DNA of 64,000 bases from contig JAOUFN010000005.1 of assembly GCA_029858285.1 (NCBI GenBank), forward strand, positions 1 to 64,000, in the 5' to 3' direction. The notes under the pieces were generated by a model, which saw only the letters and a program-made list of their open reading frames with translations, made no database searches and had not been told where the DNA came from. Below, piece by piece: positions 29,026 through 29,055 of the stretch. Origin of the DNA: Nitrospirota bacterium (GTDB lineage Bacteria; Nitrospirota; JACRHL01). The position numbers were made by a program, and so were the translations under genes. Position 1 is the stretch's first letter. Every line of letters starts with the position of its first letter.

Positions 29026-29055
29026 GGTCCCGCGAGGCCGAGAAGGATCGCCTTC
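29026..29055 (+). promoter_or_regulatory. PyrR-type RNA-binding element plus RBS-sequestering hairpin
   Basis: GGTCCCGCGAGGCC at 29026-29039 fits the PyrR binding-loop consensus ARUCCNGNGAGGYU at all but the first and last positions, and these two form a compensatory G-C pair in place of A-U. Just after it, GAAGG (29042-29046) pairs with CCTTC (29051-29055), hiding the AAGGA ribosome-binding site of pyrR right before its ATG. This suggests translational control by PyrR. Confidence 0.6.

Follow-up and report, generated by a model that had tools for sequence, protein, structure and literature searches.

The window, by which we mean the whole stretch of 64,000 nucleotides analysed here, carries a pyr operon on the forward strand with the gene order pyrR-pyrB-pyrC-carA-carB. 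The start of pyrB (29712–30689) overlaps the stop of pyrR (29056–29715; 219 aa), the dihydroorotase-like pyrC (30686–32038) overlaps pyrB in the same way, and carA (32035–33189) overlaps pyrC; each of these overlaps is an ATGA, and carB (33199–36432) follows 9 nt after carA. Downstream of carB, on the same strand, lies greA (36580–37089). Upstream, the operon diverges from gltB, encoding the large subunit of glutamate synthase (24013–28683, minus strand), with which it shares a region of 372 bp. A sigma-70-like promoter with 9 of 12 matches is predicted on the plus strand of this region (TTGACG at 28956–28961, a 17-nt spacer and TACCAT at 28979–28984), and a good minus-strand −10 TATAAT is located at 28886–28914. 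Promoter-like sites upstream of pyrR number two, against 0.1 in shuffled sequences, and TTGAC-type −35 boxes also occur upstream of the corresponding element in relatives. Counted from the predicted promoter, the pyr leader would be about 65 nt long. Elsewhere in the window, a strong match to the cobalamin riboswitch RF00174 (38492–38689, minus strand; 110 bits) precedes a gene (37752–38285, minus strand) for a 177-aa membrane-like protein without a Pfam match, possibly a cobalt or B12 transport protein. Positions 1–73 are the 3′ part of a 5S rRNA gene, and since this fragment sits at the contig edge, the contig probably broke inside an rRNA operon. The first-pass annotation took the genome for a proteobacterium-like one; the host is in fact a member of the Nitrospirota, a phylum that includes nitrifiers, as shown by three members of the window's family (L011–L013), which at the leader match contigs of Nitrospirota MAGs (L040–L042).

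The leader contains a complete PyrR-binding stem-loop, a putative operator, at 29015–29047 on the plus strand, delimited by covariance models and by covariation. Its lower helix pairs the 5′ arm UCCUU (U29015–U29019) with A29043–A29047, the AAGGA that is also the only good Shine-Dalgarno sequence of pyrR. A 5′ bulge UAA follows the lower helix, C29023 and G29042 are also able to pair, C29024 and A29041 form a mismatch, and the upper helix (C29025–C29029 with G29036–G29040) closes the hexaloop CCGCGA. The end of the upper helix and the hexaloop together make up the PyrR loop consensus GGUCCCGCGAGGCC at 29026–29039, as indicated by sequence, covariation and model alignment. The window reads GGTCCCGCGAGGCC at these positions and departs from ARUCCNGNGAGGYU only at its two ends, where G replaces A at the start and C replaces U at the close; these two bases pair as G-C, so the match and the joint change of its outer positions were correctly recognised in the first-pass annotation. 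The feature drawn there, 29026–29055, omits the 5′ arm at 29015–29019. Taken by itself the 14-mer is weak evidence, since matches in the genome with up to two mismatches are fewer than those of a reversed control pattern. Another perfect copy of the loop, at C50:47415, is part of an unrelated ORF, has no stem and was set aside as a chance occurrence.

The whole element is far above chance. The covariance-model search that had been suggested as a check was carried out with two models. The Rfam PyrR model RF00515, run against 471 bases, matches at 29012–29057 with E = 0.038 and a score of 29.4 bits. This falls short of the model's gathering score of 54, a threshold that the library sets for complete leaders including the terminator and that is not a property of PyrR binding. 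RF00515 has 115 positions including the terminator, of which the downstream 71 are missing in the window, and the low score is explained by the absence of the terminator that the model expects; Nitrospirota relatives with a terminator score 54–62 bits. The features of RF00515 that are present in the window are the loop consensus with its closing pairs, the 5′ UAA bulge and the lower stem. Because RF00515 includes a part that the window lacks, we built a hairpin-only covariance model from 24 relatives, with the window's own family excluded. This leave-family-out model finds 29015–29047 with 34.5 bits (E = 1.2e-6 in the 64-kb window), the sole significant match in the 2.56-Mb genome, where the next best match reaches 15.4 bits. 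The site is placed in front of pyrR as had been claimed, in the leader of pyrimidine genes and in a genome that encodes PyrR.

Conservation supports the same structure. The outer pair of the loop is a standard pair in all 28 distinct relatives and occurs as five pair types (GC in 16, CG in 5, AU in 4, UG in 2 and UA in 1); since this pair is not part of the pattern by which the relatives were selected, its covariation is independent evidence. The first-pass annotation had named lack of conservation of the loop in close relatives as an argument against the element, but the loop is kept and its outer positions are always paired. Across 50 phylum-wide matches, two-sided changes occupy 97 cells, compared with 34 when shuffled and no more than 14 for slid structures; the alignment used for this was fitted to the model and hence leans towards it. 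The support for the lower helix is the conservation of both its arms: both inner UA pairs are kept in 28 of 28 and in 50 of 50 aligned sequences, and the next two pairs hardly vary. As the inner UA pairs never vary, the lower stem is not provable by covariation, and Shine-Dalgarno function and PyrR recognition could each fix its letters. The 5′ bulge is either 3 or 4 nt long, for which reason MAFFT misaligned the lower arm; one N was therefore placed in the bulge of the shorter class, and N cells were excluded from the pair counts. Of 296 Nitrospirota genomes searched with the hairpin-only model, 205 have the element, almost all of them as a single copy. One genome (G160) has two elements (L132 and L133), each upstream of its own pyrR-like gene.

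The product of pyrR scores 227 bits against the PyrR equivalog NF003549 (cut-off 138). The phosphoribosyltransferase PRPP motif is present in a 10-residue stretch aligned with PyrR structures, and two 10-residue stretches are kept in that alignment. The closest solved structure, 1ufr, was deposited as a pyr mRNA-binding attenuation protein and is of Thermus origin. PyrR structures align from residue 36, which leaves the first ~34 codons as an extension ahead of the PyrR domain, and the sequence of this extension is variable among the four members of the window's family. In a PyrR tree these four form one group (100/97) that is not part of the main Nitrospirota clade (95/96); the deep nodes of this tree are weak.

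The arrangement of the start site bears directly on how the hairpin could act. The Shine-Dalgarno AAGGA (29043–29047) forms the 3′ arm of the lower helix, and the pyrR ATG at 29056 lies 8 nt after it. All four family members have a Shine-Dalgarno in the 3′ arm, and in each of them a pyrR ATG in frame follows 6–9 nt later. A terminator in the window's leader was considered and rejected, as none was found on the plus strand in 28690–29800, and no hairpin with a T-run lies within 170 nt of the element in any of the four. Given the short leader without a terminator, the Shine-Dalgarno within the structure and the ATG 8 nt past the stem, direct translational repression is the best reading, and we consider it likely that 29015–29047 serves the pyr operon as a PyrR operator within its 5′ leader and represses translation by occluding the Shine-Dalgarno. 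When UMP is plentiful, PyrR-UMP would bind and lock the hairpin, and the locked lower stem, pairing UCCUU with AAGGA, would keep the 30S subunit off the ATG that lies 8 nt further on. Given the ATGA overlaps between the first four genes and the 9-nt gap before carB, a block at pyrR would probably lower the whole operon by translational coupling, so that PyrR could probably shut off the pyr operon through a block of translation. When UMP is low, PyrR would leave and ribosomes would open the short stem. The earlier proposal of a hairpin that hides the ribosome-binding site holds in part, the Shine-Dalgarno being within a structure and translational control being the best reading, but the predicted mask is the lower stem of the PyrR hairpin and not the GAAGG/CCTTC stem that had been put forward.

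A rival reading of the leader is attenuation of transcription. Here PyrR binding would let a downstream terminator form, either in the Bacillus manner or by way of a ribosome on the leader, as proposed for Thermus. Of 49 Nitrospirota loci sampled from other families than the window's, 45 have a terminator-like hairpin with a T-run downstream of the same element, mostly starting 30–60 nt away; the sample covers many families, was not random and includes some close relatives among the genomes. The remaining four loci, which have no terminator, belong to two families (f10 and f12), in which element scores are lower. An ATG or GTG lies at +4 to +12 after the same Shine-Dalgarno in 45 of the 49 loci, against 8–10 of 49 in neighbouring 9-nt intervals, and this enrichment argues that what the stem hides is a functional start site, phylum-wide. 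Start codon and terminator occur together in 42 leaders, and in 41 of these the ORF ends within the terminator hairpin or beyond it; leader ORFs (L110–L143 and other loci) comprise 7–82 codons, mostly 20–40. Leader ORFs that start from a PyrR-hidden Shine-Dalgarno are a candidate for a phylum-wide attenuator operated by a leader ribosome. Such an ORF, running from the hidden Shine-Dalgarno into a terminator, is not present in the window: all four family members lack both the leader ORF and the terminator, and the ATG after the Shine-Dalgarno is in frame and opens pyrR itself, with its N-terminal extension. For the window, attenuation is accordingly improbable.

The hairpin GAAGG-AUCG-CCUUC lies where the first-pass annotation had placed it, at 29042–29055 on the plus strand, adjoining the pyrR ATG. 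It is predicted to exclude the lower helix, and the two stems are mutually exclusive because both use AAGGA. In a folding prediction of a 59-nt fragment without protein the two are roughly equal in stability, with this hairpin slightly ahead of the lower stem (−14.1 against −13.6 kcal/mol), and for longer predicted fragments of two loci (L011 and L012) the optimal fold is one other than the lower stem. This hairpin could be conceived as the off state that masks the Shine-Dalgarno, its formation being governed by PyrR binding. However, CCTT between the Shine-Dalgarno and the start codon occurs in 1 of 53 Nitrospirota loci, that of the window, and is absent from all 52 others including the three closest relatives in the family; moreover, a PyrR that drives this hairpin must leave the lower stem open, contrary to the conserved structure. 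We thus regard a PyrR-governed off state of this kind as very improbable and reject the hairpin as a conserved mask; judged from its distribution, it cannot be the conserved mechanism. In this one genome it may provide basal masking, with the Shine-Dalgarno partly hidden even without PyrR. Just as improbable is that the hairpin is a relic in an unregulated leader and PyrR only a uracil phosphoribosyltransferase, for although the main role of PyrR in some bacteria is believed to be enzymatic, relics would decay and this element is kept in 205 of the 296 genomes with pair-by-pair compensation.

Translational repression by PyrR, the reading that we prefer for the window, is a known kind of switch. 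In Mycobacterium smegmatis, PyrR-dependent translational repression was reportedly described by Fields and Switzer in 2007: a PyrR-binding loop is said to lie close to where the transcript begins, antiterminator and terminator are both absent, and PyrR occludes the first pyr ribosome-binding site. The window shares this layout: the loop lies near the predicted transcript start, neither terminator nor antiterminator precedes the first gene, and the operator overlaps the first ribosome-binding site, which is predicted to be occludable. It differs in belonging to the Nitrospirota rather than the Actinobacteria, in having the Shine-Dalgarno in the lower stem and in encoding a PyrR with an N-terminal extension of ~30 residues, and its switch is a prediction from sequence. 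For Thermus ZO5, Van de Casteele et al. are said to have proposed in 1997 that the pyr leader is attenuated through PyrR and a leader ribosome. The Thermus loci included here (L043 and L052) have the same hairpin with the Shine-Dalgarno in its 3′ arm, together with a leader ORF that continues into a terminator, an arrangement found in most Nitrospirota but not in the window. With the PyrR attenuators of Bacillus subtilis and RF00515 the window has in common the loop consensus, the 5′ bulge UAA and the upper and lower stems, but it is without the antiterminator and terminator part, in line with its 29.4 rather than 54 bits. The first-pass annotation had judged PyrR control of RNA to be notable outside Gram-positive bacteria; such elements are already known outside that group, as in Thermus, and several Nitrospirota leaders already exceed the RF00515 gathering score, so the surprise is smaller than claimed. 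A literature search that took in few subscription papers returned two unrelated metagenome papers and no description of PyrR control of RNA in Nitrospirota, where the switch does not seem to have been described.

Taken together, these comparisons place PyrR control of RNA in Nitrospirota on a phylum-wide comparative footing, with the PyrR hairpin and the Shine-Dalgarno as one module. In most Nitrospirota the hairpin would control access of ribosomes to a leader ORF, and the ribosome on that ORF would have to neutralise an intrinsic terminator, so that translation sets a transcriptional output. Where leader ORF and terminator are missing, as in the window's family, the same start site would open an N-terminally extended pyrR, and the output would be purely translational. 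Whether a single hairpin has indeed been given two outputs in this manner, with the window's family as a natural conversion, we regard as an evenly balanced proposition. Loss of the terminator in the window's family is not supported as a scenario, since the PyrR tree, with its weak deep nodes, gives no direction of change. The contrast between direct control and control through a leader ORF within one phylum is to us the most interesting part of these results, and this natural pair of architectures would offer a test of the way in which repressors that bind RNA change from translational to transcriptional output or back.
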